A stretch of DNA of 64,000 bases. Origin: Hyphomicrobiales bacterium (GTDB lineage Bacteria; Pseudomonadota; Alphaproteobacteria; Rhizobiales; Beijerinckiaceae). The DNA is taken from positions 1-64,000 of the forward strand of contig UBNE01000027.1 of assembly GCA_900466745.1 (NCBI GenBank). The letters are read 5' to 3'. Position 1 is the stretch's first letter; every line of letters starts with the position of its first letter. The position numbers and the translations under genes were made by a program. This document shows, piece by piece, positions 45,078-63,405 of the stretch. The notes under the pieces are model-generated. The model was not told where the DNA came from, did no database searches, and was given only the letters and a program-made list of their open reading frames with translations.

Positions 45078-47123
45078 ATGATCATCGGCACGGCGGGCCA
45101 TATCGACCACGGCAAGACCTCGCTGGTGGGGCGGCTGACCGGCGTCGACACCGACCGGCTGAAGGAGGAGAAGGCGCGCGGCATCTCGATCGCGCTCGGC
45201 TTCGCCTATTGGCCGCAAGACGACGGTTCCGCGATCGGCTTCATCGACGTGCCCGGCCATGAGAAGCTGGTCCATACGATGCTGGCCGGCGCCTCCGGCA
45301 TCGACCTGCTCCTGCTGGCGGTCGCGGCGGATGACGGGGTGATGCCGCAGACGCGCGAGCATGTCGCCATCGCCCGGCTGCTCGGCATCCGCGACGCGGT
45401 GATCGCCCTGACCAAGACGGACCTCGTCGATGCGGAGCGGATCGCCGCCGTCGGCGTCGAGGTCGCGGCGCTGCTCGCCGGCACGCCCTTCGCCGGGTCG
45501 CCGATGCTGCCGGTCTCGACCATGACCGGCGAAGGGCTGGCGCAGCTCGGCCTCCTGCTCGCGGAGAAGGCGCGGCAAGGCCGCAACCGGCCGGCCGGCG
45601 GAGCCTTCCGCCTTGCGGTCGACCGCTGCTTCACCTTGCAGGGCGCCGGCACCGTCGTGACCGGCACGGTGCTCTCCGGGACCGTCTCGACCGGCGACAG
45701 CGTCGTCGTCTCCCCCTCCGGCCTGCCGGCGCGCATCCGCTCGATCCACGCCCAGAATCTCCCCGCCGGAGCCGGCCGCGCCGGGGACCGCTGCGCGCTC
45801 AACCTCGCCGGACCGGGCGTCACGAAGGAAGCGATCCGGCACGGCGACATGGTGGTGACTCCGGCCCTGCACGCCCCGGCGAGCCGGATCGACGCCGAAG
45901 TCACGCTGCTCGCCTCGGAAGCGAAGCCGCTCGCCATGTGGCAGCCGGTGCGTCTGCATCATGCGGCGGCGGAGGTCGGCGCACGCATCGTCCTGCTCGG
46001 AAAGGAGATCGCGCCGGGCGCAACGGCCCCGGTCCAGCTCGTGCTCGACAGCCCGCTCGCCGCCGCGGCGCTCGACCGTTTCGTGCTGCGCGACGTCTCG
46101 GCCTCGCGCACCCTCGGCGGCGGCCGCTTCCTCGATCTGCGCGCGCCCGAGCGCAGGCGCCGCAGCCCTGAACGGCTGGCGCAGCTTGCGGCCCTCGGCC
46201 TGGCAGATCCGGCCGAAGCCTTGCGCGCCCTGCTTTCGGTGCCTCCCCATCATGCCGTGCTCGACAGCTTCGTCCGCGATCGCGCCCTCGCCCCCGAAGC
46301 GGCCGGCGAACTGGCCGCAGGCCTCGGCCTCGTCAGGATCGGCGCGCTCGCCATGCTCCCCCAGCACTGGCAGGCGCTGGCGCGGTCGGTGGCGGCGACG
46401 CTCGACGCCTATCACGCCGACCACCCCGATCTGCCCGGCATGGGGCTGGAGCGCCTGCGGCTCGCGGTCGCCCCGCGCCAGCCGACGCCGCTCTTCCGCC
46501 AGGTCCTGGCGCGGCTGACGGAGGACGGGCTGGTCGCCGCCTCCGGCTCCTGGATCAGGCGGCCGGACCACGAGGTCCGGCTTTCCCCCGAGGACGAGGC
46601 GCTCTGGACGCTGGTCGCGCCGCTGATCGGCGGCGGGGAGCGCTTCCGCCCGCCGCGCGTGCGCGATATCGGCCAGATGCTCGGCCGGCGCGAGGAGGAT
46701 ATCCGCCGGCTGTTCCGGCTCGTGGGGCGGCGCGGCGACGTGCACGAGGTCGCGCTCGATCATTTCTTCCTGCGCCCCACCGTCGCCGAGATGGTCGGCG
46801 TCGCATCGGGGCTCGCATCGAAGGCGGCGGCGGGCTTCAACGCCGCGCAATTCCGCGACAGGCTCGACAACGGGCGAAAGGTCGCTATCCAGATCCTCGA
46901 ATTCCTCGACCGTCACGGCGTCACCATCCGCCGCGGCGATCTGAGGCGCGTCAACCGGCAGCGGCTCGACCTGTTCGGCCCGCTGCCGGCCACGCCCGAT
47001 GGAGGAGAAACGTCCCCGGTGGGGCGTCCGGACTTCAAATCCGGGAGGGGCCGTCAGACGGTCTCTGGTGGGTTCGACTCCCATTCTCTTCCGCCATCCC
47101 TATTGAAATCATTGCGTATTTAG
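45078..47123 (+). CDS. selB: Selenocysteine-specific elongation factor SelB
   Basis: 681 aa. GTPase motifs: [28 protein letters not shown] and TKTD. EF-Tu-like domains 2-3 follow, then four winged helices ending in [18 protein letters not shown], which bind the SECIS. SelB normally ends about there (residue about 640). Here the frame continues about 45 codons, through the whole selC gene (47001-47096) and 9 codons into the integrated element. Whether the extra tail is made depends on tRNA processing. Before integration the tail would have ended PPVSTASH. Confidence 0.9.
47001..47096 (+). tRNA. selC: tRNA-Sec (anticodon TCA)
   Basis: 96 nt. An 8-bp acceptor stem pairs GGAGGAGA with TCTCTTCC (one G-T). 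The anticodon loop CTTCAAA has TCA at 47035-47037 between CCGGA and TCCGG. A long variable arm (GAGGGGCCGTCAGACGGTCTCT) follows, then the T-arm GTTCGACTC and an encoded CCA. All are bacterial tRNA-Sec features. Its last 15 nt form the left attachment repeat of the integrated element, and integration leaves the tRNA intact. It overlaps the selB frame. Confidence 0.95.
47082..47096 (+). repeat. attL: 15-bp direct repeat in the 3' end of selC
   Basis: CATTCTCTTCCGCCA covers part of the T-arm, the acceptor 3' strand and CCA of tRNA-Sec. The identical 15-mer recurs at 63391-63405 next to the integrase, defining the ends of the element. Confidence 0.9.
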
Positions 47124-47236
47124 CACAAGATCGACCGAAATCATAACACCGCACCTAACGGCCAATGACGCTATTTCGGCCAAAGAAAACCCGCCACCTT
47201 GCGATGACGGGCTTTGGCCGTGACTAGTTCGAAGAG

Positions 47237-47692
47237 TTAGGAGGCGCGCGCCTCGATCAGCGCCTTCACCTTGCGCAGCCTTTCGTAGGCCTTGCGGCGG
47301 TTTCTAGCGCAGCGTGCAGGCGTCAATTCGCGATCAAACAGGTACTGGCGGATGACGTTCTGCAAATCGCCGGTCTTCTTGTTCACGCAGGTCCAGACTC
47401 GGACATCGAACGGCTTGAAGTGCAGGTCTGTGCTGAAGTTCGGGCTGAGCACGCCGGTCGCGCGACGAAGCCCAGCGAAAGCGCGCTGACCTGCCTCCAT
47501 GCGCTCGTCGCTCTGATGCTCAAGGCAGTAGTTCAGCCAATAGGGCCGACCTTCATACGGGCCGCTCACGACCTGAGCCTTGCACTTCAGCACCATACCC
47601 AGCCCGTCGCAGGTGGGCACATACTCCGACTCGACGATCTCAAGGGTGTAGGTCTCAGAAGGCAGTAGGTTGTTAACTGCGTTGGCGGTCAT
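47237..47692 (-). CDS. DUF669-like phage protein
   Basis: 151 aa. The beginning (NLLPSETYTLEIVESEY … GLGMVLKCKAQVVSGPYEGRPYWLNYCLEHQSDE) fits the DUF669 family, found in phage recombination and replication modules and probably with an OB-like single-strand DNA-binding character. The tail is basic. The ATG follows AAGGAG. It stands alone at the left end, facing away from the XRE-type regulator, with four operator-like repeats between them. No recombinase lies beside it. Confidence 0.65.
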   Translation of the reverse strand: MTANAVNNLLPSETYTLEIVESEYVPTCDGLGMVLKCKAQVVSGPYEGRPYWLNYCLEHQSDERMEAGQRAFAGLRRATGVLSPNFSTDLHFKPFDVRVWTCVNKKTGDLQNVIRQYLFDRELTPARCARNRRKAYERLRKVKALIEARAS

Positions 47693-47720
47693 GGGCTGGC
47701 TCCTTATTGCGTCCCAGCGG

Positions 47721-47800
47721 CGAAATCGCTACTGTGTCAACAATACGAAGCATAATCGTCACGTCAAGTCGAAATCGCCACGGAGTATCGAAATTGTCAC
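47721..47800. promoter_or_regulatory. Four-copy operator-like repeat CGAAATCGYCAC
   Basis: Degenerate 12-mers lie at 47721-47732 (cgaaatcgctac), 47751-47762 (cataatcgtcac), 47770-47781 (cgaaatcgccac) and 47789-47800 (cgaaattgtcac), all in one orientation, with the last three 19 bp apart. They fill the gap between the divergent DUF669-like and XRE genes, and the last covers the proposed XRE start codon. Binding by the XRE protein is the simplest explanation. Confidence 0.55.
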
Positions 47801-48021
47801 CTGCCCAATGTAGGATGGCCCGTGCCGCGCTTCAGATCGGCGTGCGCGAACTAGCCGAGTCCGCCATGGTTTCAACCAATACGATCACACGATTTGAGAA
47901 AGGCGAGGATCTAAAAGATCGCACCGTCAACGCTATCCGCGCCGCCCTCGAATCCGCAGGCGTTCAGTTCCTAGACAACGGCACGGTCAGCACCGGGCCT
48001 GGTGTGGCGTTGAAACCATGA
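47794..48021 (+). CDS. XRE-family helix-turn-helix repressor-like protein
   Basis: 75 aa from a TTG start preceded by GGAG; it begins LSPAQCRMARAALQIGVRELAESAMVSTNTI, the usual start of small Xre regulators, and ends IRAALESAGVQFLDNG. The frame is open up to 47707, but that part overlaps the operator-like repeats and is probably not coding. An ATG at 47815 would cut into the first helix. It overlaps the next HTH gene by 4 nt (ATGA). It is a candidate master repressor of the element. Confidence 0.75.
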   Translation: MSPAQCRMARAALQIGVRELAESAMVSTNTITRFEKGEDLKDRTVNAIRAALESAGVQFLDNGTVSTGPGVALKP

Positions 48022-48299
48022 CCGCCGACGCAGTCCAGCCGGTGTTCGTCGATCGCAAGACGGCGGCAGCCATGCTGATGATCAGTGTGGACACGTTCAA
48101 CATGTGGCTGCAGCAGGGTTTCATCCCGCCTGCCCATATCAACCGCGGCCAGATCATCCGGTGGCATTGGCCAAGCGTCGAAAAGAAACTGGCGGGGACC
48201 GATAATCCTACGCAGATCGAGCCGGTGCGTAGGATTATGCCAGAAGGCCCATACGTCCGACCCAAGCGCCAATACAAGCGGCGGCAGCCCACCCCTTGA
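48018..48299 (+). CDS. Small HTH protein (excisionase/MerR-like)
   Basis: 93 aa. FVDRKTAAAMLMISVDTFNMWLQQGFIPPAHINRGQIIRWHWPSVEKKL reads as an excisionase-like helix-turn-helix with a wing. The C-terminal tail is basic (RPKRQYKRRQP). Coupled to the Xre gene by ATGA. It could be an excisionase or a second regulator. A perfect 12-bp inverted repeat lies in its coding sequence at 48202-48238. Confidence 0.65.
   Translation: MTADAVQPVFVDRKTAAAMLMISVDTFNMWLQQGFIPPAHINRGQIIRWHWPSVEKKLAGTDNPTQIEPVRRIMPEGPYVRPKRQYKRRQPTP
48202..48238. repeat. Perfect 12-bp inverted repeat inside the HTH gene
   Basis: ATAATCCTACGC (48202-48213) and GCGTAGGATTAT (48227-48238) are exact reverse complements with a 13-nt loop. 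No T-tract follows, so it is not a simple terminator. It could be an operator, an RNA hairpin or a recombination site. Confidence 0.6.
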
Positions 48300-48347
48300 C
48301 CGCACCCGGCCCGGCAGGTGACGCTGGCGCAAATGGGAGGGATGGGG

Positions 48348-48542
48348 ATGGCAGAAGAATCCAAAGAAGGCGAAAAGCCCAAGCGGAAACGCAGAAGATC
48401 GAAGGGTTCGAAAAAGCCGAAAGCCGAAGCCGTTATGATCTCGGACGAACAAGCAGTCGAGATAATCAACAAGTTCGTCCGTGGGATCCGCAAGGGCATC
48501 CGGGATGCGGTGAAGGGCAAAAAGCATCTGAGCCTGAAATAA
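48348..48542 (+). CDS. Small lysine-rich hypothetical protein
   Basis: 64 aa from the ATG that follows GGGAGG; a GTG 30 nt upstream is possible. The N-terminal half is highly basic (KPKRKRRRSKGSKKPK) and the C-terminal half looks helical (SDEQAVEIINKFVRGIRKGI). I do not recognise the family. The basic half suggests nucleic-acid binding. A terminator hairpin begins at its stop codon. Confidence 0.5.
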   Translation: MAEESKEGEKPKRKRRRSKGSKKPKAEAVMISDEQAVEIINKFVRGIRKGIRDAVKGKKHLSLK

Positions 48543-48579: not shown

Positions 48580-48582
48580 GCG

Positions 48583-50499
48583 CTACCCGCGGAACCTGCG
48601 ATTGCTATTGATCGCCTGCGTCGCCGCCGACATAGGCCCGCGCCCGCGGATCATGTTGTCAGCGATTCGGCCCTCGACCGCGGCGATAATCACTGAGATA
48701 TCGCCGTTGCTGTCTTGCGACGTCTGAACCTGCGCGCCTGCGTTGTTGACGACGTTGACGTTGACGGCCGGCTTACCACCACCGCCACCCAGCCCCGCCG
48801 GCACGCTGGGCACGCCGACATAGCCGCCGCCCGCATAGCCCTTCGCAAGATTCTGCAGGTTGCCCAGCCCGAGCTTTTCGACCTGGGCCTTCGTGAAGAC
48901 GTACTCGCCTTTGTGGACCACGCCAGCCGGTGTATTCTTGCCGCCTGCGCCGGTGTAACCGCCGGAGTCGTACAATCCGCCAGAGCCAGCCGTTAGGCCC
49001 GTGCCGCCCTTGAACAGATTGCCGATCAACCCGAACACGCCGCCCGCACTGCCGTTCGTGCCGCTAGTGCCGAAGATGCCGGCAAGCGGCCCGGAGCCCA
49101 TGAGTGCGGCTTGCAGGGCAGCGCGGGCGAGTTGCTTCACAAGGTTTTTCATGACATCGGTGGCTTTCTCACCGTCGATAATCATGTCGGCTAGGCTATC
49201 TGTAATAGCTTCCCCGAAGAACTTAGCCGCTTCGTTCGCGTCTTTCTGGGCCTTTTTTACCTTCTCAATCGACTCGCGCAAGGCTTCATTGGCCTTGACG
49301 ATATCTTCGATCTTCTGCCGCTGGCCGTCATCTTCAACGGCACCAATTCGAGCCAGTTCGATCGCGGCAGCACGTTCGGCTTTGCTTTTGCCGAGTGTCG
49401 CCTGTTCGGCCTCGAGGACCCGGTTTACCTTTTCCAGGCTCTCAATATACCGCTGGACCTGATCGTAGCGGGTTTCTTCGTCGGACTTGCCGCCGCCACC
49501 GCTGCCAGAGGATTTCGACGGGATCTTGGTTGCGTCGCTGCCGAGATAGCCCCGCCCCGGGCGGCTCGGCGGATATGGCGCGGTAGTCGGCGTCCCGTCC
49601 GGGCGCGCTGGCGGCGTCGGGGCAGTGACGGGCTGACCGCCGGCTGCCATGGCCGCGATCTGACGTCCCAGCGCCCCGCCGGCCTCTCGCGCCGCAGTCA
49701 TGCGCTTCTGGAAATCGTCGGCCTGTTTAATCAGGTCGGCGAGCCCGGCTGCGGCATTGACGGTTGCCGCCTTCGCCGCGCTGGTGAAAGCATTCCAGCC
49801 GCCCGACCATGCATCATCAAACTGCTTCGCCTTGGCGATCACATCGTCACTAAGTGCCGCACCGGCATCGCGTGCGTTCTGGGCGAGCTTGTCGAGGGCG
49901 GCGCTGCCGCCTTCCAGCAGCGGCACGAAATCGGCAGGGATACCGAACTTGTCCGCGATCTGGAGCTTGTCGCTTTCGGTGCTGGCCTTGCTGATCAAGT
50001 CCGCCGCGACGCCGAGCGCCTCGTTGGTCGAGATGACCTGGCCGGTGCGATCGCGATATCGAACGTTGTTCGCGTCGAGCAATTTGGCGAGGTCGCCCTC
50101 GCCATCCTTAGCGTCGTTCAGCGCCTTGGCCAGCCCGGTCAGGCCGGAGTCGAAGGTCTTGCCGTCGATGCCCTTAGAACCGGCGGCATACCGAAGCTCT
50201 TGGAATTTCTGAAGCTCAATGCCGGCTTGCCGCGACGTCTGGGCAAAGGATGCAATCTCGCGGTTCGCCGACAGCACGCCCTTGGCGATCTTCTCCAGGC
50301 CGATGCCCGCTACCGCGGCGCCCAGCCCCTTCAGCGCGCCGGTGAGCGCGCTGGTGCTGATCGAAGGATTGACCTTGTTGAACCGGGACTCGATCTCGCT
50401 GGCAGCCTGCTCCGCGACCTTGCCGGCCTTTTTCATCGCGGCTTCAAAGTCTTTGACCTGCGCTCCGACCGCGAATGTCAGCGAGTTTGAATCAGCCAT
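48583..50499 (-). CDS. Phage tail tape measure protein
   Basis: 638 aa. The N-terminal half is helical (VKDFEAAMKKAGKVAEQAASEIE; Ala-rich stretches), followed by a Pro/Gly-rich linker near residue 300 and a glycine-rich C-terminal region with YAGGGYVG. It ends RIADNMIRGRGPMSAATQA, a common end of tape measure proteins. In siphophages it sets tail length and helps DNA ejection; 638 aa predicts a rather short tail. The start at MADSNSLTF overlaps the chaperone gene by 8 nt. No further tail gene follows; a terminator does. Confidence 0.82.
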   Translation of the reverse strand: MADSNSLTFAVGAQVKDFEAAMKKAGKVAEQAASEIESRFNKVNPSISTSALTGALKGLGAAVAGIGLEKIAKGVLSANREIASFAQTSRQAGIELQKFQELRYAAGSKGIDGKTFDSGLTGLAKALNDAKDGEGDLAKLLDANNVRYRDRTGQVISTNEALGVAADLISKASTESDKLQIADKFGIPADFVPLLEGGSAALDKLAQNARDAGAALSDDVIAKAKQFDDAWSGGWNAFTSAAKAATVNAAAGLADLIKQADDFQKRMTAAREAGGALGRQIAAMAAGGQPVTAPTPPARPDGTPTTAPYPPSRPGRGYLGSDATKIPSKSSGSGGGGKSDEETRYDQVQRYIESLEKVNRVLEAEQATLGKSKAERAAAIELARIGAVEDDGQRQKIEDIVKANEALRESIEKVKKAQKDANEAAKFFGEAITDSLADMIIDGEKATDVMKNLVKQLARAALQAALMGSGPLAGIFGTSGTNGSAGGVFGLIGNLFKGGTGLTAGSGGLYDSGGYTGAGGKNTPAGVVHKGEYVFTKAQVEKLGLGNLQNLAKGYAGGGYVGVPSVPAGLGGGGGKPAVNVNVVNNAGAQVQTSQDSNGDISVIIAAVEGRIADNMIRGRGPMSAATQAINSNRRFRG

Positions 50500-50848
50500 T
50501 CGCGGCGGTCTCCACCTCCGGCTCGGCAACCGGAGGGGCGCCCATGATCGCGCGCGTCAAAACCGTGACAGCCGTAGGCGTCGGCTCGCAGATCGGGCGC
50601 TGCACGACGTACTGCTGCGCCAACTCGTAAGCTTCTTTGGTCGACGCGCCGCCGCCAATCAGCCCGAGCCGGACGATCTCATACACCGCGAGCGGCGACC
50701 AAGTCCCCTGCTCGAACCGGCTCAGCGTGTGCATCGGCCCCTCGTCAAGCAGCTTTTCCAGCTGGAGGAGTTGATCGTAAGGCAGCGCGAAATCATGCGG
50801 GCCGTCACCAAAGAACAAGTTCACGGTCGAGGGGTGCTTGTCAGTCAT
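50492..50848 (-). CDS. Tail assembly chaperone (GTA-gp10 / Phage_TAC_11-like)
   Basis: 118 aa. NLFFGDGPHDFALPYDQLLQLEKLLDEGPMHTLSRFEQGTW and the following VYEIVRLGLIGGG match the gene transfer agent gp10-like tail chaperones, which normally sit between tail tube and tape measure genes and protect the tape measure during assembly. It precedes the tape measure gene with an 8-nt overlap, as expected. The tail tube gene that should lie upstream is missing. Confidence 0.75.
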   Translation of the reverse strand: MTDKHPSTVNLFFGDGPHDFALPYDQLLQLEKLLDEGPMHTLSRFEQGTWSPLAVYEIVRLGLIGGGASTKEAYELAQQYVVQRPICEPTPTAVTVLTRAIMGAPPVAEPEVETAANG

Positions 50849-50857: not shown

Positions 50858-51262
50858 CTAATCTGAAAGTCGTTTCGCCGCGGCGATTGCAGCGGCCTGA
50901 AGGTCTTTTTTTATCTGTGGCTTGCGGTGGTTGATGGTGGGCCAGAACCAGGCGCGGCCCATTTTGTCTTTGCGGCCATATTCTGTGAGATTGGCGATAT
51001 CGACGCTGTACGCGCCTTCGCGAACCGTCTTGGTTGTCGCCGAGCCGCCAGCCCGCACCAGGAAGTGATCCGGACTACGCGCCGACTCTAGGCGGACACT
51101 ACCGGCTAGTTTGCCCGTGTCCTTGGGCGCGGAGCCCTTCAGCGCGACGACGAGCGTGGCCGCAGAAAGCAGAGCCTGAGCCGCCGTGGCCGCTCTGACC
51201 TCGACGGGGATTTTCGCGAGCCGGCGTTTGAACCGGGCGACGCTGGCGGCAGACCTAGCCAT
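50858..51262 (-). CDS. HK97 gp10-like tail-completion protein
   Basis: 134 aa. ARFKRRLAKIPVEVRAATAAQALLSAATLVVALKGSAPKDTGKLAGSVR and YGRKDKMGRAWFWPTINHRKPQI match the HK97 gp10 family, where the protein sits at the head-tail interface or tail terminator region. ATG at 51262; a GTG one codon upstream is possible. It overlaps the DUF3168 gene by 8 nt. Confidence 0.75.
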   Translation of the reverse strand: MARSAASVARFKRRLAKIPVEVRAATAAQALLSAATLVVALKGSAPKDTGKLAGSVRLESARSPDHFLVRAGGSATTKTVREGAYSVDIANLTEYGRKDKMGRAWFWPTINHRKPQIKKDLQAAAIAAAKRLSD

Positions 51263-51638
51263 CACAGAGCGCCTGGAACCGAACCGACGCGAAGGACACG
51301 AGCCCTTGCTCCGTGCCGTAGTTCGTGTCCTGCCAGATGACTTCAGCGCCCGCCGGCTGGAGCCGGTTTAGGGCATCCGTGACGGCGTCCGCCATCTGCG
51401 CGACTTCCTTGCGTCCGGGCTTGTCGCTGTATGCCAGGATCATGAATTCAACGGTGGACGCATCCATGCAATCCGTGCCGTCATTGCGGGCAACCCAACT
51501 CGCCATGGCGACATACGGCTGCGGCTCATTGTCGGGGATGCGGTCATAGATCCGTCCGCCTACCAGAGCAGATAGCGGTGCGGATGCGCGCAGGGCGGCC
51601 ACGCAGGCCGCCTGCACGACTAGCGTGTTGTCAGGCAT
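51255..51638 (-). CDS. DUF3168 family protein (tail terminator-like)
   Basis: 127 aa from MPDNTLVVQAACVAALRA. GGRIYDRIPDNEPQPYVAM and MDASTVEFMILAYSDKPGRKEVAQMADAVTDAL are the DUF3168 pattern; this family includes lambda gpU-like tail terminators. It overlaps both neighbours by 8 nt. It lies downstream of terminase, whereas in most siphophages it follows the head-tail connectors. Confidence 0.75.
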   Translation of the reverse strand: MPDNTLVVQAACVAALRASAPLSALVGGRIYDRIPDNEPQPYVAMASWVARNDGTDCMDASTVEFMILAYSDKPGRKEVAQMADAVTDALNRLQPAGAEVIWQDTNYGTEQGLVSFASVRFQALCDG

Positions 51639-54249: not shown

Positions 54250-54386
54250 AAACAAAACTTATGCTAAAGGCGCCATTCATAAGTTTAGGGAATGGCCCAA
54301 AATTGGAATATCGCGAGCGATGGGGGCGGCGTGGTCCCTAGCCCCCTAGCGGCGTCGCGACCCACCCCCCGGCCTTATGTTGCGTT

Positions 54387-54770: not shown

Positions 54771-54956
54771 GGGATATCCTGTGGGTATCGGGGCCGGCAT
54801 CACTGCCAGCCCCGGCGAGGTTTCACGCATTAACCCGCCTATGACTATTGCCCGGCGGCGCGGGATGCGTGCTTGCTGCTCTCGGACTCTCGCTGCACCC
54901 TCTAGGAGGGCCGCCGAACAAACTTGTGCGGGGCGCCCGAAGACGCCCCTAGGGCC

Positions 54957-56049: not shown

Positions 56050-56583
56050 TTAGCCTTTGAAATGAGCGCGGGCCGAGTTGATAGCCTCGACCAGGGCGCG
56101 GAAAGAATTGGTGTTGGATTTGACGCCGGTAATCGTGGCGTCTTCGTTCATCGGGAAGGTGACTAAACTCACTTCTCGAAGCTCGATTTCGTGAAGGCGG
56201 CGAACGCCCGATTTGCGGTCGACTTCGTCCTTGATGGTACGGAAGCCGATCGACAGGCCGTCCAGCGCACCCGCTTTCATGAGCGCGTGGGCCTCGCGAC
56301 CGCGGGCCGTCTCCAGTAGAAGTTGGCCTTCAGCTTTCAGCCCCTTGGAGTCTTCGACCAGCGAAGTCCAGACGCCAACGGGCTCGCTAGTATCGTGCTG
56401 CCAGAGCAGCTTGACGCGGGCCGCCGGGTACTTCTGAAGCGACTTGGTGAAGCTACCCGGCATCACGACGTCTCCGCCGCGATCAGTGTTTCCGAAGGTC
56501 GAGGCGTAGCCTGTAAACGAACCATCGGCGGCGACTGATTTGACGTCGAGGTCAATCGTGTCGCCGTGATTGTATTTATTCAT
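56050..56583 (-). CDS. HK97-family prohead protease
   Basis: 177 aa from MNKYNHGDTIDLDVKSV. The core phrases GSFTGYASTFGNTDRGGDVVMPGSF, KLLWQHDTSEPVG (with catalytic His) and LDGLSIGF (catalytic Ser) are diagnostic of the U35 family. It cleaves the capsid scaffold domain during maturation. Overlaps the portal gene by 8 nt. Confidence 0.9.
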   Translation of the reverse strand: MNKYNHGDTIDLDVKSVAADGSFTGYASTFGNTDRGGDVVMPGSFTKSLQKYPAARVKLLWQHDTSEPVGVWTSLVEDSKGLKAEGQLLLETARGREAHALMKAGALDGLSIGFRTIKDEVDRKSGVRRLHEIELREVSLVTFPMNEDATITGVKSNTNSFRALVEAINSARAHFKG

Positions 56584-57769
56584 GCGTCGTTTGCTGTCCC
56601 GTTGAAGTATAGGGGTTGTCCAAAGTATCTCCGCCAGGCAAGGCTTCCATGTTTTCGAGCCTCCTAACATCGTTCGCAGTCATTACGCCCATAGACCGGA
56701 ATTTGGCGTAGGCTTCTGCCCGGGTCGCGGTGTCCGCACGAAGCAAATCGTCGACTGTGAAATCGAAACTATATTCGCTGCGCTCATCTTTGCTGAGAAG
56801 CGTGCGGCGATATGCGTCCGTCCAGGCTTTTAGCCAGGGCAGCAAGCATAGCTGCAAGAACTGCAATGCCTGCTGTTCGGTATTTGCAAAAGTGCCGTGG
56901 CTAAGCTCTTGGAGCATCGTGACGGGCACACGGGTAAGACGCGAAATTTCCGCAATAGCGAAATTTCGCTGCTCGAGTTGCTGGCTATCGACGGAGTTGA
57001 ACGCCGCACTGGTGTAGCTGGCGTCATTATCGACGATCGCCACCGAACCGACATTGTCGCCGCCATTGGTCGCATTCCACATTTCCAGAATGTGTTTTGC
57101 GGCAGCCGGCTTCAACGAGCCCTTGACTGACAGCAGTCCGCCCGGTCGACTGTTGTTGCGGAACAGCCGCGCCGAGGTTCGCTCCAGAAGGATCGCGAGC
57201 CCGATGGCGTCGCGTCCACTGCGGAGCAGGCCGACGCCACACTTGCCGTCTAGGCTCGGCGCTTGAATGTGGATGATACTGTCGGACTTGTAGCGTCGCT
57301 TGCCGACCGTGTAACGAGGCTCGCCGGAGTCAAGATACTCGACCGTAACCTTGTGTCGCGGGAGGTAAAGGATCTCGACGGGCCGGCCCGAAACCTTGTT
57401 CACGAACGCATAGCCATCGCCATGCAGCAGTGCGTCCGTCGTGACTAGTTCGCGAACCTTTCCGGCGGACTGCCAGTCATTAGCCTCCTTATGGGCCAGG
57501 AAGGCCGCTGGGGCGTCAGGGGCGGGTTCTTTGCCCTTCGACGTAGTCCGGTACAATTTGCACGGCAGCGTGCCTACCGCGCCGGTTATGAGCGATACAG
57601 CGGCATTCACAGGAGCGCAGGCCATAGCGCTGTCGGCGGTGACGGCAACACCCGACGCGGAGGGCGCGAGGCCGGCGACCAGGGCAGCCCAAGAGTCGCT
57701 GTCGGGATCGGTGAGTTCGGCTTTCGTTTCCGACACGGTGACGGATTTCTTAAACGGCCACCAGCCCAT
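56576..57769 (-). CDS. HK97-family phage portal protein
   Basis: 397 aa. The middle (ILYLPRHKVTVEYLDSGEPRYTVG, GCGVG-like CGVGLLRSGRDAIGLAI) and later RNNSRPGGLLSVKG and NFAIAEISRLTRVP segments match the HK97 gp3 family. The dodecameric portal forms the DNA entry channel and binds terminase. It shares its start base with the stop of the preceding HTH gene. The gene is complete. Confidence 0.9.
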   Translation of the reverse strand: MGWWPFKKSVTVSETKAELTDPDSDSWAALVAGLAPSASGVAVTADSAMACAPVNAAVSLITGAVGTLPCKLYRTTSKGKEPAPDAPAAFLAHKEANDWQSAGKVRELVTTDALLHGDGYAFVNKVSGRPVEILYLPRHKVTVEYLDSGEPRYTVGKRRYKSDSIIHIQAPSLDGKCGVGLLRSGRDAIGLAILLERTSARLFRNNSRPGGLLSVKGSLKPAAAKHILEMWNATNGGDNVGSVAIVDNDASYTSAAFNSVDSQQLEQRNFAIAEISRLTRVPVTMLQELSHGTFANTEQQALQFLQLCLLPWLKAWTDAYRRTLLSKDERSEYSFDFTVDDLLRADTATRAEAYAKFRSMGVMTANDVRRLENMEALPGGDTLDNPYTSTGQQTTHE

Positions 57770-58185
57770 TACGCCGCATCCCTCCAGCGCTGTTCCATCG
57801 TCTCGACAACGGCGTCCAGATCAGCTTGCAAGGTCGCCGGGCCGATGTCGGTGACGTCCTCGGGGCGCTTGCCGTAGGGGATGCGGAGGATCTGGGCTTT
57901 CGGTCCGTCGACGACGAGCCAGGTGCGGGCCGTGGGGTGAAGCTGCCCACCGGCATCGCGGAAGAACAGTTCGGCATGTTTCATGGCGAGCCGCGGTGCG
58001 AGGCCACAGGCATGCAGCGCGACGGCGATCGACAGAAGGATGACCGCGTTCTTTTCGAACTGGTGCGGTACGCCAGGCTGCCCCAGCCGGGTCGGCTCGA
58101 TGACGCGCCGATCTATCCAACTAGCGAGTTCTTGATATGTCATGCCGGCAGCCGCAGCCGCCTCGGCGGTCGGCAAAGGTTTCAT
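57769..58185 (-). CDS. HTH protein heading the capsid operon
   Basis: 138 aa from MKPLPTAEAAAAAGMTYQELASWIDRRVIEPTRLGQPGVPHQFEKNAVILLSIA, a MerR/excisionase-like helix-turn-helix, with a helical C-terminus. I do not recognise the exact family. The ATG is preceded by AAGGAA. It is the first gene after two tandem terminators and directly precedes the portal gene, so it may be a late regulator or a small packaging component. Confidence 0.6.
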   Translation of the reverse strand: MKPLPTAEAAAAAGMTYQELASWIDRRVIEPTRLGQPGVPHQFEKNAVILLSIAVALHACGLAPRLAMKHAELFFRDAGGQLHPTARTWLVVDGPKAQILRIPYGKRPEDVTDIGPATLQADLDAVVETMEQRWRDAA

Positions 58186-58218
58186 GGTTGTTTCCTTGGC
58201 AGTGTGGAAAGTAGGTTT

Positions 58219-58269
58219 AAATAAAAAGGCGAGCGCGCCGGTGGATAACACCAAGACACCGGCGCGCTC
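58219..58269 (-). terminator. Rho-independent terminator, promoter-proximal to the capsid operon
   Basis: GAGCGCGCCGGTG (58231-58243) and CACCGGCGCGCTC (58257-58269) are a perfect 13-bp inverted repeat. On the minus strand it is followed by GCCTTTTTATTT. It would stop transcripts coming from the replication genes, 34 nt before the HTH start. Confidence 0.8.
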
Positions 58270-58316
58270 GAGCCCCACGCCGCCGCTGAAATCCAAGTCA
58301 ACGGCAGCGCATCTCG

Positions 58317-58362
58317 AATAAAAAACCGCCACCCGGCGGATCGTGCGGAACTCCGGGCGGCG
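58317..58362 (-). terminator. Second minus-strand Rho-independent terminator
   Basis: CCGCCACCCGG (58325-58335) pairs with CCGGGCGGCGG (58352-58362) with one mismatch; on the minus strand it is followed by TTTTTTATT. It stands in tandem with the terminator at 58219-58269. Confidence 0.7.
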
Positions 58363-58525: not shown

Positions 58526-59218
58526 TCACGCTGAATGTTTTTTTAGGGAGTGGGAAAGATTATCGTTCGCTGCCTCGAAGTTGAACAATATCTCCTGCCT
58601 GTCCGGCTCACCCTCTTCCATGCGAGCGAGGATGTCCCGCGCGTCCGCCAACTGGTTCAACGCCAGCAGCAACGCACCCCGGCCAGCAGCGGGCGCAGTG
58701 TCCTTGCCGCGGCTGCCCAGCGCCTCGCCAATCCGCCGCATGTCTAGCCGGTCGAAGACGGCCATGCAGACGATGCCCCAGGCAGAGCCGAGCCGGCTGG
58801 CCGTACGATCCAGCAGGCGTATCGCCCGCGCCTTCACCTCCAAGGGCAGCAGCGCGTAGATGTTGCGGCTCTTGTCGATCGCGTGAATCGGCTGCCCGGG
58901 TGCGTTCGGCGGGTTGTCCTGCGCCGCCGCCAATGCCGACGACGACGCGAGCGGGTGCGCAATGTCCGCCAGCCGCTCGATCCACTTCACCGCCGCCCAC
59001 AGTCTGTCGCCGCACTCATCGTCACCGAACCTTCCGGCTCTGAATTCCTCGCGCAGTGGCCAACGGTCTTGCCCTGGCCTTGCAGGCGCAATCGAGCCGT
59101 CTACGGGAGGCGCGCCGGCTGCGAGCATGTCCTGCGTCACACGAAGACGCCACGGCGGATCGTCGTCGTTCGCAGGCAGCTTGCTGAAGGCGGTGATGAC
59201 GGGAAGGGTGATGGTCAC
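58526..59218 (-). CDS. Hypothetical protein of the replication module
   Basis: 230 aa from a GTG in a 4-nt overlap (GTGA) with the RepA-like gene. I do not recognise it. Residues about 55-110 are acidic and helical, 110-175 helical (LLPLEVKARAIRLLDRTASRLGSAWGIVCMAVFDRLDMRRIGEAL), with no catalytic motif that I can name. Coupling to the ATPase suggests a replication accessory role. Ends 164 nt before the second terminator. Confidence 0.5.
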   Translation of the reverse strand: MTITLPVITAFSKLPANDDDPPWRLRVTQDMLAAGAPPVDGSIAPARPGQDRWPLREEFRAGRFGDDECGDRLWAAVKWIERLADIAHPLASSSALAAAQDNPPNAPGQPIHAIDKSRNIYALLPLEVKARAIRLLDRTASRLGSAWGIVCMAVFDRLDMRRIGEALGSRGKDTAPAAGRGALLLALNQLADARDILARMEEGEPDRQEILFNFEAANDNLSHSLKKHSA

Positions 59219-60870
59219 TTGGTTGCTCCGTTCTCTGAGATGATGGCCGCTGTGCGGCTCTTGGTTAGGAAGGCGAGTGGGGTGAATTCGGAGTCGTCGA
59301 GATCGGACCTATCAGGGCCGGAAGGTTCATCTTCCGGTGAGTGGTGGTTGGCTTCGACCACCACCATCTCGGCCTCGGCTACGCCAATATCGGGGGTCTT
59401 TTCTTGATCAAGGTTTTGACCATGATCTTTCTCTTCCCCCGGCACACGAGACGGCACATCGGCACACTCTAAAGAGTGTGTGCCGTTTTGTGCCGCCTCG
59501 TTGTTGATGCCCACTTCACTAACGGCACACGGCACATCAACGGCACATGTGCCGCTTGTGCCGTCTTCTGCCACGACGAACCCACCGTCCTTGATGAGAA
59601 CGGTGCCTGCTCCAAGCAGGGCCTCGCGGGCACGCAGGAACCGGGTCTTCAGGGTGTGCGGTTTCTCGCCAGGATACGCGGCGTAGAATTCCTTGCGCCA
59701 CTCGTCGATGACGACACGTCCGCCCCATCGCCGTAGGTCACGCAGGACAGATAGAGCCTTTCCGGTGTGACCTGAGGACATCGCGGCCGCGAACGCCTCT
59801 GCGGCTTCCTTGGCATCATCGGGCACGATGACCGGGGCCGTTGTTGGGTTGCCGTCCTCGTCCTCGCCGACCGTCACCGACTCCATGCGGAAGGTCGTGA
59901 CAACACCGTCCTCGGCGTCGTTCGCGCCGTCACACTCAAGGACGTAGGAACCGCCGCCTTTCTTCTTGACCATGAAGCTGGCGTCAACCGCGCCGTCTAG
60001 GTCGATGGCGCCTTTGCCGCGCTCGCCGGACCACGCGGTGTGATGGATCACGGTGACATGCGCGCCGGTCTCTTTGAGCATCAGGTCGCAGTTGGCGACG
60101 AAGCGCCCCATGTCCTTACTGGCGTTCTGGTCCCCCGGCCCGAAGACGCGGGTCAACGTGTCGATGATGATCCATATGCACTTCTGCCCGCATTCACGTT
60201 CAGCGGTTTGGATGGCCACAATCAGGGCTCGCGTGTCGACGTTGGTCGACGTCATGTCGATGAAGCCGCCGAGCACCAGCAGCGGTATATTGCCGGTGCC
60301 GTGACGCTTTCGGAATGCTGCCATGCGCCGCTCGGTGAGTTTCTTGCGCTCGGCGGCGACGTAGACGACGAAGCCCTGCTTCACCTTCCGGCCGTGCCAG
60401 TCCATGCCCGCGGCAACATGGCAAGCCATGTCGGTCATGATGGCGGACTTGCCAGAGCCGGGGAGGCCAGAGTTCATCGTGAACTCGTTCTCTCCCAGAA
60501 CGCCCTTGATAAAGGTCTTCTTGATCTGCGTCGTGTCGATATCAGCGAACCACGTCAGGTCAAAGCGGCCGGTCTGAGCGGGGCGGTTGTCATTGGCCGG
60601 GCGCTTCATCCAGGCGTCGCGCATGGCGCGGAACTCGGCCTGTCGCCTGTCCCGTTCTGCCTCACGTTCGGCGCGCCATAGTTCGGATGCAGCCCAGTCC
60701 CGCCGTCGGGTGTACTCGAGATGGTGCGCATGCTCGGCAGGCGATGGCTCGGGGTCGCTAGGCTCGAGGTCGGGCAATTCCGCCAGCGGACCTATGAAAT
60801 GGTATAGGCCGGTGTCTTCGTAATCGTCATCGTCGATGTCGACGGCCGCTTCAGGCTGCGCTGCGGTCAA
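59215..60870 (-). CDS. RepA-like AAA-type helicase/replication ATPase
   Basis: About 551 aa from a TTG start (GGGGCTAAAGCC upstream); the frame continues to 60978, and an ATG at 60624 is too short to be preferred. Walker A GLPGSGKSA (residues about 135-143), a Walker-B-like CIWIIIDTLTRVFG and a following HVTVIHHT match the RepA/AAA_25 DnaB-like hexameric helicases. The C-terminal part from about residue 400 has a winged-helix-like stretch and a variable acidic tail. It likely starts replication of the element. Its coding sequence contains ten CGGCACA repeats at 59440-59563. Confidence 0.8.
   Translation of the reverse strand: MTAAQPEAAVDIDDDDYEDTGLYHFIGPLAELPDLEPSDPEPSPAEHAHHLEYTRRRDWAASELWRAEREAERDRRQAEFRAMRDAWMKRPANDNRPAQTGRFDLTWFADIDTTQIKKTFIKGVLGENEFTMNSGLPGSGKSAIMTDMACHVAAGMDWHGRKVKQGFVVYVAAERKKLTERRMAAFRKRHGTGNIPLLVLGGFIDMTSTNVDTRALIVAIQTAERECGQKCIWIIIDTLTRVFGPGDQNASKDMGRFVANCDLMLKETGAHVTVIHHTAWSGERGKGAIDLDGAVDASFMVKKKGGGSYVLECDGANDAEDGVVTTFRMESVTVGEDEDGNPTTAPVIVPDDAKEAAEAFAAAMSSGHTGKALSVLRDLRRWGGRVVIDEWRKEFYAAYPGEKPHTLKTRFLRAREALLGAGTVLIKDGGFVVAEDGTSGTCAVDVPCAVSEVGINNEAAQNGTHSLECADVPSRVPGEEKDHGQNLDQEKTPDIGVAEAEMVVVEANHHSPEDEPSGPDRSDLDDSEFTPLAFLTKSRTAAIISENGATK
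59440..59563. repeat. Iteron-like cluster: ten copies of CGGCACA in 124 bp
   Basis: CGGCAC(A) in plus orientation at 59440, 59452, 59460, 59523, 59530 and 59541, and its reverse complement (T)GTGCCG at 59480, 59490, 59549 and 59558. Distances are not multiples of three, so these are not peptide repeats. CACACTCT and AGAGTGTG make an 8-bp palindrome around AA near 59463-59480. Position inside the replication gene recalls lambda ori in gene O. Origin function is inference. Confidence 0.7.
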
Positions 60871-61123
60871 AGGCTTTAGCCCCCATATCGGAATAAGCAA
60901 TTGCCGCCATGCGCGTGAGTTCGCGGGCGGTCGGAAGGTCGAAGGTTGCGGCGCGCTTACCGTGAGCGTTGGGTGCAATCACCCGCTTTTCACCATTAGG
61001 CAGCTCTCGGTAGGCAATATTGTAGATCCTGATGCCGCCCGTTACCTCCAAATCAAATAACGCTAATGTTTGTGAGCCGTTAGCCGTTCGATAGCCGTCC
61101 GGCCTTATATCAAGTATACGCAT
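60851..61123 (-). CDS. Hypothetical phage protein
   Basis: 90 aa: MRILDIRPDGYRTANGSQTLALFDLEVTGGIRIYNIAYRELPNGEKRVIAPNAHGKRAATF. This beta-rich beginning resembles small phage proteins that carry SpoVG-like or ssDNA-binding folds, but the match is weak. It overlaps the RepA-like gene start by 20 nt, so it is co-transcribed. A TGTTACGTAACG palindrome lies 29 nt before its start. Confidence 0.5.
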   Translation of the reverse strand: MRILDIRPDGYRTANGSQTLALFDLEVTGGIRIYNIAYRELPNGEKRVIAPNAHGKRAATFDLPTARELTRMAAIAYSDMGAKAFDRSAA

Positions 61124-61151
61124 TAATGCTCCGTGCTAATTATAGACCTAT

Positions 61152-61700
61152 TGTTACGTAACGCGTTTCTTGGTCTTGAATTTCGAAAGAGTTGGATCGG
61201 CGTGATATTCCGAGACAAGGCGCAGCGTTCCCAGCCCACCCTTGGCTCGGTCACATACGTCCTTGCCGTGCTCGGCAACTATTCTGGCGACCACGGCATT
61301 GTGCTCGTCTCGAAGCTCCCGCATTCGCTGCTCTTGGCTTTCCCTCTCCCGCGCCCAGCCCTCCCATGCGCTGCGCAACCCGAGCGCGGTTGCCAGTTCG
61401 ATAGGTGCCGACGCCCACTCGTGACAGTTCCATCCGAGGAACGTCGGAAGCCCTTCAGCCTCATCGGGAACCGGCAACAATGTTGAAGCCCCGACCAAGT
61501 CGCGTTGTCTGACTTGGTCGGGTGATAGGGTGAGCGTCGCGGTTCGGCTTTCCGTTACATAACGGGGCGTTGTAGCCGCCTGCGCCTCCGCAAGTTTTTG
61601 CTTCTGCCGTTCGCGCCAGCGTGCCTGGCGCTCTGCGTTCGTGAGTCCCATCGCCATCCCCGTTACGTAACGAGCGCGAGATATAGGCCGTTACGTAACG
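61152..61700. repeat. Four dispersed copies of a CGTTACGTAACG palindrome
   Basis: Copies: TGTTACGTAACG 61152-61163, CGTTACATAACG 61553-61564, CGTTACGTAACG 61661-61672 and CGTTACGTAACG 61689-61700. The last two are exact and 28 bp apart, between the alpA-like and next genes. They are good candidates for operator sites of an element regulator. Confidence 0.6.
61154..61651 (-). CDS. Hypothetical protein with basic N-terminus
   Basis: 165 aa from MGLTNAERQARWRERQKQKLAEAQ; an ATG 6 nt upstream is possible. The N-terminal phrase NAERQARWRERQK is common in small mobile-element proteins. The middle has LTLSPDQVRQRDLVG; the end is a helical basic stretch. Function unknown. Two of the four CGTTACGTAACG-type palindromes lie within this gene, at 61553 and across its stop codon. 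Confidence 0.5.
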   Translation of the reverse strand: MGLTNAERQARWRERQKQKLAEAQAATTPRYVTESRTATLTLSPDQVRQRDLVGASTLLPVPDEAEGLPTFLGWNCHEWASAPIELATALGLRSAWEGWARERESQEQRMRELRDEHNAVVARIVAEHGKDVCDRAKGGLGTLRLVSEYHADPTLSKFKTKKRVT

Positions 61701-61709
61701 AATGCAACA

Positions 61710-61925
61710 TCATGCAGCCCTCCCGGCGCGAGCGGCGATGCGGTCGTTAACCCAGGCAGCAACCTCGGCACGCACGTAGGCCTGCCGGCGCTCCCCAAGC
61801 TGGACCGGCAGTGGGAAGTGGCCCTCCCGCGACATCAGCGTGAGTAGCTGCCGTGACAGGCTCGTCTCTGCGGCGGCCTCCTTCGGGCTCATGAGCACGG
61901 GCCGGTTATCGTTCGCTGCAATCAT
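61710..61925 (-). CDS. AlpA-like transcriptional regulator/excisionase
   Basis: 71 aa. SPKEAAAETSLSRQLLTLMSREGHFPLPVQLGERRQAYVRAEVAAWVNDRIAAR is the AlpA fold: a winged HTH of the MerR superfamily. AlpA-type proteins activate excision or the main operon in P4-like elements and Gram-negative phage-inducible islands. The start at MIAANDNRP follows GGGAG. A promoter with TTGACT and TATAAC boxes lies about 95 nt upstream. Confidence 0.82.
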   Translation of the reverse strand: MIAANDNRPVLMSPKEAAAETSLSRQLLTLMSREGHFPLPVQLGERRQAYVRAEVAAWVNDRIAARAGRAA

Positions 61926-62019
61926 TTTTGGCTCCCCTCGAAAAAAGTTCTTGACAGATGTTTGGCATCGGTGACATAGTATGAGCATGTCCCGCCTTCC
62001 GTAACTAAAGGCGGCACAC

Positions 62020-62049
62020 GTTATAGCGAAAAATCGGGTGCCAAGTCAA
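62020..62049 (-). promoter_or_regulatory. Promoter upstream of the alpA-like gene
   Basis: On the minus strand, TTGACT (62049-62044) and TATAAC (62025-62020) are spaced by 18 nt. A CGGCACA copy, the same motif as in the iteron cluster, lies at 62012-62018 next to the -10 box, and a 7-bp inverted repeat CCGCCTT/AAGGCGG (61992-62014) follows. The expected start is near 62010. Confidence 0.55.
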
Positions 62050-62062
62050 GCGGTATTTGCCG

Positions 62063-63262
62063 CTATTGGCTAGATTCGCAATATTGTTGCCAGTCCTCCA
62101 TCAATTTTCGACGTTTCTGCAGCGCATCTGAGCGCCGATATGCTCGCTCGGTCTCATTTCCGACCGCGTGCGCCAGCGCCGATTCGATGATCTCCCGCGG
62201 ATGGTCCGTCTCATCCCCCGCCCAATCTCTGAACGTTGAGCGCCAGCCGTGCAGGGTCGCAGCCTTATCCGGCGAAGCGAGGCGAAGTGCCTTCGTCATC
62301 GCCGTGTCCGATATCGGCGCGCCCTCCTTGCCGCCCTCGAAGACCAGCGCCGACGTTGATTGCTGGCGTCGCACCTCGACGATGGCAAGCGCTCGATCCG
62401 TCAGCGGAACCACATGCTGGACTCCCGCCTTCATCCGATCGCCTGGGATGGTCCAAGTCTTTGCGGTCGTGTCGATCTCGTCGAAACGCGCGCCCCTCAC
62501 CTCCCCGGCACGTCCGACCGTCATCACAAGGAACTCAACGGCCCGGGCCGCGGTGCCTGACGACTGCCGAAGCTTCGCCACGGTGGCGGCAGCTTGCACG
62601 TGGCTGAGCGCCGCATGATGATCTTTCTCCCGCTTCTTGCGCGCCGGCATCACCTTGTCCAGCAGACCGCGCCACAGGGCCGGGTTGCCCGCCTTACGCC
62701 ATTCGTGCGCGATGCCGTAGTCGATCACGGCTCGGATGCGCATGCGCAAGCGGTCGGCCGTTTCGGGCCGCTCATGCCAGTGCGGCAGCAGCGCTTCCTT
62801 GACGTCGCCAAGCGCAATGTCGGCAATAGGCATGTCGTGAAGCGGCGCAGCGTAATCGCGGAGCGTCATTTCCCACTGCGCCTTGTGCTTCGGATTGCGC
62901 CATCCCTCGGCCTTGCTTTCCAGCAGCGCCTCCATGCAATCGGCAAATGTCTTGGGCTTCGCAGCCGGCTTGGACACAGGTTTGGGACCGCGCGGGTCTT
63001 CGCCATTAGCCAGCCTGTCGCGGATGGCCTGCGCCTTCTGGCGCGCCAGCGACAGCGATACAGGCGCCGTTCCCGATCCATAGCCGCCCAAGCCGATCTC
63101 CACGCGCTTATCGCCGCGTCGGTAGACGAACACCCAGTTCTTGGACGGCGGGCGGTCGCCGCGAGGCTTCTGGACACGCAGCCAAAGGCCGCCACCATCT
63201 CCCAGCATGCCGGGCTTGACGTGGCTCTTGCATCGGCTCTCAGATAGTTTGTTGAGCGCCAT
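62063..63262 (-). CDS. Tyrosine-type site-specific integrase (P4-like)
   Basis: 399 aa. Residues 1-90 are an arm-binding domain of the DUF4102 type (LNKLSESRCKSHVKPGMLGDGGGLWLRV … ARQKAQAIRDRLANGEDP). The core has catalytic Arg251 (RAGEVRG), His338 and Arg341 (HGWRSTFRDW), His365 and Tyr375 (ERAYRR). It inserts the element at the 3' end of tRNA genes; here the target is selC. Its start lies 129 nt from attR, transcribed away from it, as in P4-type islands. It appears full length. Confidence 0.92.
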   Translation of the reverse strand: MALNKLSESRCKSHVKPGMLGDGGGLWLRVQKPRGDRPPSKNWVFVYRRGDKRVEIGLGGYGSGTAPVSLSLARQKAQAIRDRLANGEDPRGPKPVSKPAAKPKTFADCMEALLESKAEGWRNPKHKAQWEMTLRDYAAPLHDMPIADIALGDVKEALLPHWHERPETADRLRMRIRAVIDYGIAHEWRKAGNPALWRGLLDKVMPARKKREKDHHAALSHVQAAATVAKLRQSSGTAARAVEFLVMTVGRAGEVRGARFDEIDTTAKTWTIPGDRMKAGVQHVVPLTDRALAIVEVRRQQSTSALVFEGGKEGAPISDTAMTKALRLASPDKAATLHGWRSTFRDWAGDETDHPREIIESALAHAVGNETERAYRRSDALQKRRKLMEDWQQYCESSQ

Positions 63263-63390
63263 GTCCTACCTTCCGACGAACCATTGTCGTCATAACCGTC
63301 GTACTAACGACAATACGGCAAACTTGGCCAACGGAGCAATCTTCAATGCCAATATCGCCAAATTTGCCCGATTTCGGCCAGGTTGGCGGT

Positions 63391-63405
63391 CATTCTCTTC
63401 CGCCA
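63391..63405 (+). repeat. attR: 15-bp direct repeat of the selC 3' end
   Basis: CATTCTCTTCCGCCA, identical to 47082-47096. Beyond it the chromosome resumes; the joined, element-free sequence would put GTTTCGACGGCG right after the tRNA CCA. Confidence 0.9.

Follow-up and report, generated by a model that had tools for sequence, protein, structure and literature searches.

The window studied here, 64 kb taken from contig UBNE01000027.1 of a Hyphomicrobiales bacterium, contains an island of 16,324 bp (47082-63405) which is probably an integrated capsid-forming satellite making chimeric virions: the tube and tip of a helper phage would be laid on the tape measure protein (TMP) of the satellite. 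Several lines support this reading: the island is bounded and its site is empty in a relative; it has a complete set of head genes with no recognised tube, tip or lysis gene; its well-aligned genes are under purifying selection; its head and tail genes show discordant kinship; and the phage-inducible chromosomal island-like elements (PLEs) of Vibrio cholerae offer a precedent.

The island, its site and its genes

The sole tRNA gene of the window, tRNA-SeC (47000-47096), carries at its 3' end—the last 15 bases—the left copy of a 15-mer, CATTCTCTTCCGCCA, which is found exactly twice in the 64 kb, at 47082-47096 and at 63391-63405. The GC content, measured in 1-kb windows, is 0.56-0.66 in the island versus 0.65-0.76 to its left, in the flank from 40000 on. 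Once joined without the island, the two flanks match a single contiguous stretch of another genome of the same genus (G022:C11:663743-664296, 83% identity, query 33-592) where tRNA-SeC is intact; this locus is an empty attB. Both flanks also lie at most 45 bp apart in eight more genomes (G026, G037, G039, G051, G052, G056, G060 and G062), and their matches are about 15 kb apart in G057 and about 10 kb apart in G023, so that this site stands empty in relatives and is reused. The initial annotation, which placed in tRNA-Sec a 16.3-kb element bounded by a 15-bp repeat, is thus confirmed by ARAGORN, by the two exact copies of the 15-mer and by the empty site of G022. The island of G057 lies in the same tRNA-SeC and is bounded by the identical 15-mer. 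In G023 (L323, G023:C1:597001-609000), the roughly 10 kb that separate tRNA-SeC from the gene normally found downstream hold genes without island matches. The host assembly (G000) has 4.49 Mb and its genus group includes G016; we infer that the genus is Bosea.

Genes were called by a custom script, ORFs below 60 aa being left aside, and each of the 23 island genes listed was scanned against Pfam, PHROGs or both (L094, quoted below, is an IMG/VR element whose portal is 85% identical to that of the window):

47000..47096, +, tRNA-SeC, integration target on the attL side (ARAGORN)
47082..47096, unstranded, 15-bp direct repeat, left copy (exact repeat search)
47237..47692, -, DUF669 / single-strand DNA-binding-type protein (phrog_2300, phrog_6015; Pfam DUF669 below cut-off; 85% in the Bosea island G016:C2)
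47707..48021, +, HTH transcriptional regulator (phrog_2439)
48018..48299, +, excisionase-like HTH protein (phrog_66, 6.6e-4)
48318..48542, +, orf74 (no PHROG; 85% in L094)
48583..50529, -, TMP, 638-648 aa (phrog_10574, 1.3e-50; C-terminal part matches PDB 8iyk chain H)
50492..50848, -, probable tail assembly chaperone (TAC) of the GTA-gp10 family (Pfam PF11836; AlphaFold model mostly helical, pLDDT 89.7)
50858..51265, -, tail-completion/neck protein, HK97 gp10-like (phrog_5, 3.8e-9; Pfam HK97-gp10 at 19.3 bits, cut-off 21.4)
51255..51695, -, tail terminator / gp17-type (Pfam PF11367, Tail_completion_gp17; phrog_176)
51631..53226, -, terminase large subunit, TerL (Pfam TerL_nuclease, TerL_ATPase)
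53226..53633, -, terminase small subunit, TerS (Pfam PF05119)
53630..53965, -, head closure protein (Pfam PF05521)
53962..54255, -, head-tail connector (Pfam PF05135)
54387..54830, -, HNH endonuclease (phrog_2323)
54957..56045, -, HK97-type major capsid protein, MCP (Pfam PF05065, 3.3e-68)
56050..56670, -, prohead protease S78 (Pfam PF04586; start probably near 56583)
56576..57769, -, portal protein (Pfam PF04860, 1.2e-84)
57769..58332, -, orf187 (no Pfam/PHROG family; regulator-like by eye; 88% in L094)
58526..59218, -, orf230, RepA-adjacent (no family above cut-off; homologues adjoin RepA in L252 and L322)
59215..60978, -, RepA-like helicase/primase protein (Pfam AAA_25; phrog_906, DNA polymerase/primase)
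60851..61123, -, orf90 (no Pfam/PHROG family; upstream of RepA in many islands)
61154..61657, -, orf167 (no Pfam/PHROG family; 100% in L094)
61710..61988, -, AlpA-type regulator (Pfam Phage_AlpA)
62063..63262, -, tyrosine integrase, 399 aa (Pfam Phage_integrase, Arm-DNA-bind_3; residues 1-395 87.6% identical to the counterpart in the G057 island)
63391..63405, unstranded, 15-bp direct repeat, right copy, attR (exact repeat; the same 15-mer bounds the G057 island)

According to Pfam and PHROGs the island encodes its own MCP, protease, portal, connectors, TerS, TerL and HNH endonuclease, as well as four tail-assembly proteins—terminator, completion protein, TAC and TMP; all the assigned genes are uninterrupted frames. 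The integrase, AlpA and a primase-type gene are traits of phage-inducible chromosomal islands (PICIs). Both databases agree with the functions first proposed for the integrase, AlpA, the RepA-like protein, portal, protease, capsid, connector, closure, HNH, terminases, TMP and chaperone, and two genes come in addition to that first list: the tail terminator (51255-51695) and the tail-completion/neck protein (50858-51265). Likewise, Pfam and PHROGs, completed by folding of the chaperone, revealed nothing recognisable as a tail tube, tip, fibre or lysis gene in the set of 23, which agrees with the lack of lysis, baseplate, fibre and tube genes already described.

The gene at 50492-50848 is described as “Phage tail tube protein, GTA-gp10” in Pfam and as “tail tube” in PHROGs. 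Its predicted fold (AlphaFold) is a beta hairpin with five helices, and the structure search by Foldseek gave two matches below E 1e-3, of which the named one is a tail assembly chaperone; among the weaker matches both names, tube and chaperone, are found. In the prophage G063 the true tube protein (Phage_tail_2) adjoins a chaperone of the GTA-gp10 family. We therefore rejected the tube label, since predicted fold and Foldseek point to a chaperone, and we take the product of this gene for a chaperone and not a tube. None of the unassigned island ORFs matched a tube family in Pfam or PHROGs; the largest of them, orf230, has a homologue adjoining RepA also in L322, an island without matched capsid genes. 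A prophage tube protein used as a query against the PDB gave nothing useful, and the search of the own genome (G000) for a G063-type tube, made without a positive control, was empty.

Head and tail genes of different kin

The MCP is poorly conserved: its best match among 200 related genomes, self excluded, is 44%, and it reaches 68% in the IMG/VR contig L031; a single-sequence capsid scan of genome contigs gave no match, and the capsid matches in the phage collection are all below 60% identity. Instead of the capsid, portal and TerS alignments served to gather the relatives, 80 of 147 and 80 of 81 matching IMG/VR contigs being kept respectively; 27 named genome loci were recovered, those of Camelimonas fluminis and Ancylobacter aquaticus among them. 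RepA matches (E 1e-25) occur in 15 of the 200 genomes, own included.

The plan of the island recurs, with different integrases, in A. aquaticus (DSM 101, L251, which has a TMP), in several IMG/VR contigs and in a Bosea metagenome-assembled genome (G016:C2, L252). This last island resembles that of the window in its DUF669 protein (85%), RepA (73%), protease (76%), portal (67%) and TerL (55%), and has its own chaperone, completion protein and TMP; its integrase differs from that of the window. Judging from gene-order strings, some elements possess head genes only, some head genes and TMP, and some further tail genes. The head genes find their nearest relatives in other islands: compared with L173 and L096, TerL, portal and protease of the window island reach 77-89% identity (TerL 87-89%, portal 77-78%), and the TMP only 33-35%. 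The MCP is 26-39% identical to that of the sister islands L094, L173 and L096, although identity with the same islands is 77-89% for portal, protease and TerL; the capsid gene thus seems, from these comparisons, to have been swapped independently. We also noted directly 3' of the TMP gene a family of proteins of 213-227 aa with at most a weak PHROG match (L251 14510-15193, L173 12847-13506 and L057 274-915).

TMP matches (E 1e-8) are found in 18 of the 67 genomes of the genus, own included, and the long ones opened in G063, G005 and G016:C53 sit in siphophage tail modules composed of terminator, completion protein, tube, chaperone, TMP and tip genes. The fullest prophage is G063, where lysis-type genes were read by eye; that of G016:C53 stops at the contig end. 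In G005 (L300-L301, G005:C11:150001-190000) the 40 kb taken contain a complete tail module, comprising tube, TMP and tip genes as well as an amidase, but TerL, portal and capsid are unmatched there. Compared with these Bosea prophages, the window island displays 47-52% identity for the TMP, 42-45% for the completion protein, 36-39% for the chaperone and 30-33% for the terminator (46% with the prophage G042, whose TMP is matched at 55% in its C-terminal half only). At the opposite, the head genes are distant—22-27% for TerL and 23-33% for the portal—with the exception of the protease, 51% identical to that of G016:C53. Head and tail genes are thus of different kin, since TerL and portal are close to those of the islands L173 and L096 and the TMP is closer to that of Bosea siphoprophages.

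Taken by blocks, with the best match outside L094 within the gathered sequence set, the TMP finds its nearest relatives in Bosea prophages in all four blocks compared: G005 for residues 161-240 (71%), G063 for 321-400 (73%), and G042 for 481-560 (73% by BLAST over 79 columns; the 84% of the global alignment counts aligned columns only) and for 561-648 (53%, nearly tied with the 51% of the island L096). The TMP is thus a mosaic drawn from phages of the helper type. Its residues 468-601 align with 689-816 of PDB 8iyk chain H, named “Tape measure protein”, which we take to be the gpH of lambda, the aligned end being presumably located at the tip. The length of the TMP was not retained as a signal of tail length: 638-648 aa in the island and 589, 619, 649 and 853 aa in prophages give no consistent direction.

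Selection, and the presence of the TMP among related elements

Compared with L094, the dN/dS ratio is 0.08 for TerL, 0.11 for the portal, 0.15 for TerS and for the protease, and, for the tail genes, 0.16 (completion protein), 0.20 (terminator), 0.27 (TMP) and 0.41 (TAC), with dS near or above 1 and partly saturated. These values cover genes other than AlpA and the integrase; MCP (26%) and RepA (23%) align too poorly with L094 for a reading, and the HNH alignment contains one stop. The well-aligned genes of the island are under purifying selection. Besides, about 750 bp of tmp are nucleotide-identical in L094, with upstream stretches at about 64-85%, so that this segment must be a recent exchange between the two lineages.

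In a TerL tree of 89 elements the presence of the TMP requires 10 changes, 7 of them forced by starred branches, for a mean of 16.7 when presence is shuffled (0 of 500 shuffles as low). The four nearest elements on this tree, window included, all possess a TMP; those that follow in path distance, L097 and L250, are without it. In L250, the otherwise head-only island of Camelimonas fluminis KCTC 42282, a 76-aa ORF near 13952-14182 is like the C-terminus of the TMP (E about 2e-5) and is perhaps a remnant.

How common the TMP is was estimated on a sample seeded with the portal and TerS of the window island, which is thus biased and no census. It comprises 125 loci in the order portal, TerS, TerL, that is 106 after merging TerL at 95%, of which 90 are evaluable, either because a TMP was seen or because the sequence extends 2.5 kb or more beyond TerL, a rule which favours the TMP. 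A TMP is found in 72 of these 90 elements (72/106 at worst, if the 16 left out all were without it). A recognised tube is found in 15/90, so that 57/90 have a TMP without a recognised tube; tip-type matches occur in three (L148, L205 and, weakly, L132) and lysis genes in none of the 90, according to HMMs built from few seed proteins, which possibly miss divergent tubes outside the window element. An HMM from the L145 tube protein was not used for the counts: it picked up 88 loci, which we put down to its Ig-like domain. Among 95 candidate ORFs after the TMP, 90 were scanned (the remainder, four of L251 and one of L252, lie mostly beyond the element): 11 are second chaperones (Phage_TAC_18) and 2 distal tail proteins, besides single fibre or tail matches. 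The complete Pfam tally of these ORFs, 16 families, contains no lysis family; the PHROG tally lists 25 of 69 families. The initial annotation saw in the combination of TMP and chaperone an intermediate not obvious in the known types; this view is not supported, considering the 72 elements above, the PLEs, and the putative tmp genes noted for some cf-PICIs in PMC12987554.

The tail genes might be recent passengers without a role, in an element that is either a plain capsid-forming PICI (cf-PICI) or non-working. The at least 10 changes of the TMP on the TerL tree, 7 of them forced, and the recent exchange of part of this gene with the L094 lineage go in this direction. However, dN/dS is well below 1, the TMP is kept in most evaluable elements and it is clustered on the tree, the changes being fewer than after shuffling; we thus hold this possibility for very unlikely.

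Some islands possess a TMP while lacking matched head genes. L322 (G057:C1:5258501-5275500), the 15-kb island of G057, encodes a head maturation protease, a fibre-type protein and an 808-aa TMP, and nothing in it matched the MCP, portal or TerL of the window; in G050, RepA (47-49%), HNH, a 614-aa TMP, an ORF resembling DUF669 and what looks by eye like an integrase are present, the MCP, portal and TerL of the window being unmatched within 32 kb. From their gene content, the islands of G057 and G050 may be capsid-less satellites or decayed ones. Closed circles were also found: Paracoccus marcusii NZ_CP157016 (17,494 bp), whose 842-aa TMP spans the record start; Methylorubrum populi BJ001 pMPOP02 (L330; 23,392 bp), with an annotated tube, a further tail protein, a TMP and a Tn3-type insertion; and Roseomonas mucosa pTT14-8 (16,883 bp), with head genes only. 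None of the three has an annotated tip or lysis gene in the PLSDB tables, which are incomplete. These closed circular records support the idea that elements of this type are complete as they stand. L330, L328 and L329 are filed as plasmids, yet they are circular elements of the head-plus-TMP or head-only type.

A decayed prophage, left by a siphophage after loss of the tube, tip and lysis genes, would explain why tail genes that make little sense alone are found here; the islands of G057 and G050 would then be further steps of decay, and the apparent TMP remnant of the Camelimonas island L250 would fit as well. On the other hand, the plan recurs elsewhere in combination with different integrases, the assigned frames are unbroken, the well-aligned genes are under purifying selection, and closed circular elements are devoid of the same parts. 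The terminases, last in the window island, come first in the prophages G063, G016:C53 and G042, and the 23 listed genes include neither tube, tip or lysis genes nor remnants of them. The kin of TerL and portal are islands, not prophages; the initial annotation was to be abandoned if the closest relatives were complete prophages and no such island existed elsewhere, and the head genes point to the contrary. Decay of a prophage is, in our opinion, highly improbable.

Proposed chimeric tails and comparison with known systems

We propose that a siphophage induces the island, which would excise, replicate and package its own DNA into its own heads. The satellite TMP, held by the satellite chaperone, would dock via its C-terminus on the tip complex of the helper, and the helper tube protein would polymerise on it; the satellite terminator would then cap the tube, and the satellite neck would join the tail to the satellite head. 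The helper would thus give tube, tip, receptor binding and lysis. Having a TMP of its own would allow the satellite to divert tip and tube subunits of the helper to its particles, as shown for PLEs.

The activity of the copy in the window is putative, and several observations weigh against this proposal. Among the tail genes dN/dS is highest (0.41) for the TAC, which would hold the TMP, and the head module does not require a TMP, as attested by the related islands L097 and L250. The mosaic structure of the TMP does not allow the cognate helper to be pinned down; besides, a second match to this TMP is absent from its own genome at E 1e-3. What reads as a resident siphoprophage with a full tail module is present there (G000:C28:30001-65000; L331, L332), but its TMP, of 1130 aa, differs from that of the island: C28 is a possible helper, though not an obvious one. 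A gene transfer agent (GTA) of the host could also be imagined as the tail supplier, since G000 has at C38 a second capsid match together with a tip-hub match, taken for a putative GTA, and the island chaperone belongs to the GTA-gp10 family. However, this family is also found in siphoprophages and, the own genome being devoid of a second match to the island TMP, the GTA receives no support as a helper and appears extremely improbable.

Alternatively, the island might be an ordinary cf-PICI using complete helper tails, the TMP and chaperone acting as decoys that block the tail assembly of the helper. Defence systems of PICIs and prophages are indeed known to attack tail assembly, such as Tai (PMC11364771) and Tab, which targets the TMP (PMC10884400), and a TMP is also found in islands without matched capsid genes. 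Yet Tai and Tab are not described as TMPs in these reports; the island also possesses terminator and completion genes, which build tails; its full-length TMP, close to prophage TMPs, looks like a working scaffold; and a PLE satellite TMP was found in the virion (PMC12987554). Decoys are therefore unlikely, and we favour the chimeric tail.

The C-terminus of the TMP might follow the type of tip. In the island of G016 (L252), residues 1-677 of the TMP are 56% identical to the TMP of a small element of G029 (L067), and the last 64 residues (678-741) are 72% identical to the prophage of the same genome, G016:C53, and 66% to the prophage region G024:C41. The tip proteins of these two prophages are close (hub 73%, next tip protein 79%). 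The same 64 residues are 34% identical to G042 and, among the nine fetched stretches compared, have no match at E 1e-3 in the window island, G063, G005, G026 and G029. This correlation, observed on one island, is only suggestive.

More tentatively, and with somewhat less than even confidence, we propose that “tail-templating” satellites form a large class in alphaproteobacteria, in which the TMP would be an exchangeable cassette matched to the helper, its C-terminus tracking the tip; they would range from a TMP with no capsid genes (G050, G057) to head and TMP (window) and to head, tube and TMP, and rely on a helper for tip and lysis. If so, the choice of the TMP, not of the capsid, would set which phage is exploited, and the sequence of the TMP would provide a computable guess at the normally unknown helper phage. 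Our data also suggest that many capsid-forming satellites may step in earlier, where the tube is laid on the TMP. The idea of chimeric tails, shown in Vibrio PLEs, would thus be extended to another bacterial class and to satellites having their own heads. Literature searches (titles and abstract openings) gave no alphaproteobacterial case of such satellites among the matches listed, and a search on Rhizobiales satellites nothing relevant among those listed; a TMP-rich alphaproteobacterial family and a TMP C-terminus tracking the phage tip type are apparently new.

The cf-PICIs make capsids and packaging machinery and take their tails from a helper (PMC10690885); they average 14 kb, with gammaproteobacterial and Firmicutes groups (PMC10803314). 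The window island has a similar size and, like them, its own MCP, protease, portal, connectors, TerS, TerL and HNH, an integrase, AlpA and a primase-type gene, and no recognised tube, tip or lysis gene; it differs by four additional tail-assembly genes including the TMP. The strict definition found in PMC10690885, a whole tail from the helper, thus does not apply to an island encoding TMP, TAC, terminator and completion protein. The initial annotation of a cf-PICI-like satellite stands as far as an intact-looking, integrated and capsid-forming element is concerned; the island is cf-PICI-like by gene content, not a strict cf-PICI, and would function as one with an addition of the PLE type. The Streptomyces satellite MulchRoom likewise has its own capsid and packaging genes and a helper tail, but, in the description of PMC10690885, its tail genes are unreported, it has no primase and its helper is virulent. 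The Bosea siphoprophages G063, G005, G016:C53 and G042 share with the island homologous terminator, completion, chaperone and TMP (30-52% where matched); they differ by the presence of tube and tip genes, by terminases that come first where seen, and by mostly weak similarity of the head genes.

The PLEs of Vibrio cholerae encode TMP and TAC and form chimeric tails (Mathur et al. 2026, PMC12987554). According to this work, the TMP of PLE11 enters virions together with helper tail parts, the PLE TMP replacing that of the helper, and deletion of tmp in three PLEs lowers transduction by 96-99.9%. Like them, the window island possesses its own TMP and TAC and no recognised tube, from which a helper tube and chimeric tails would follow; at the opposite, PLEs use the capsid of a contractile-tailed helper, whereas the window island has its own head and a TMP akin to those of siphophages. 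The legend of Extended Data Fig. 10b in PMC12987554 reports putative tmp genes in a sampling of cf-PICIs and, by this description, cf-PICIs with a putative tmp are probably the nearest published category to the island of the window.

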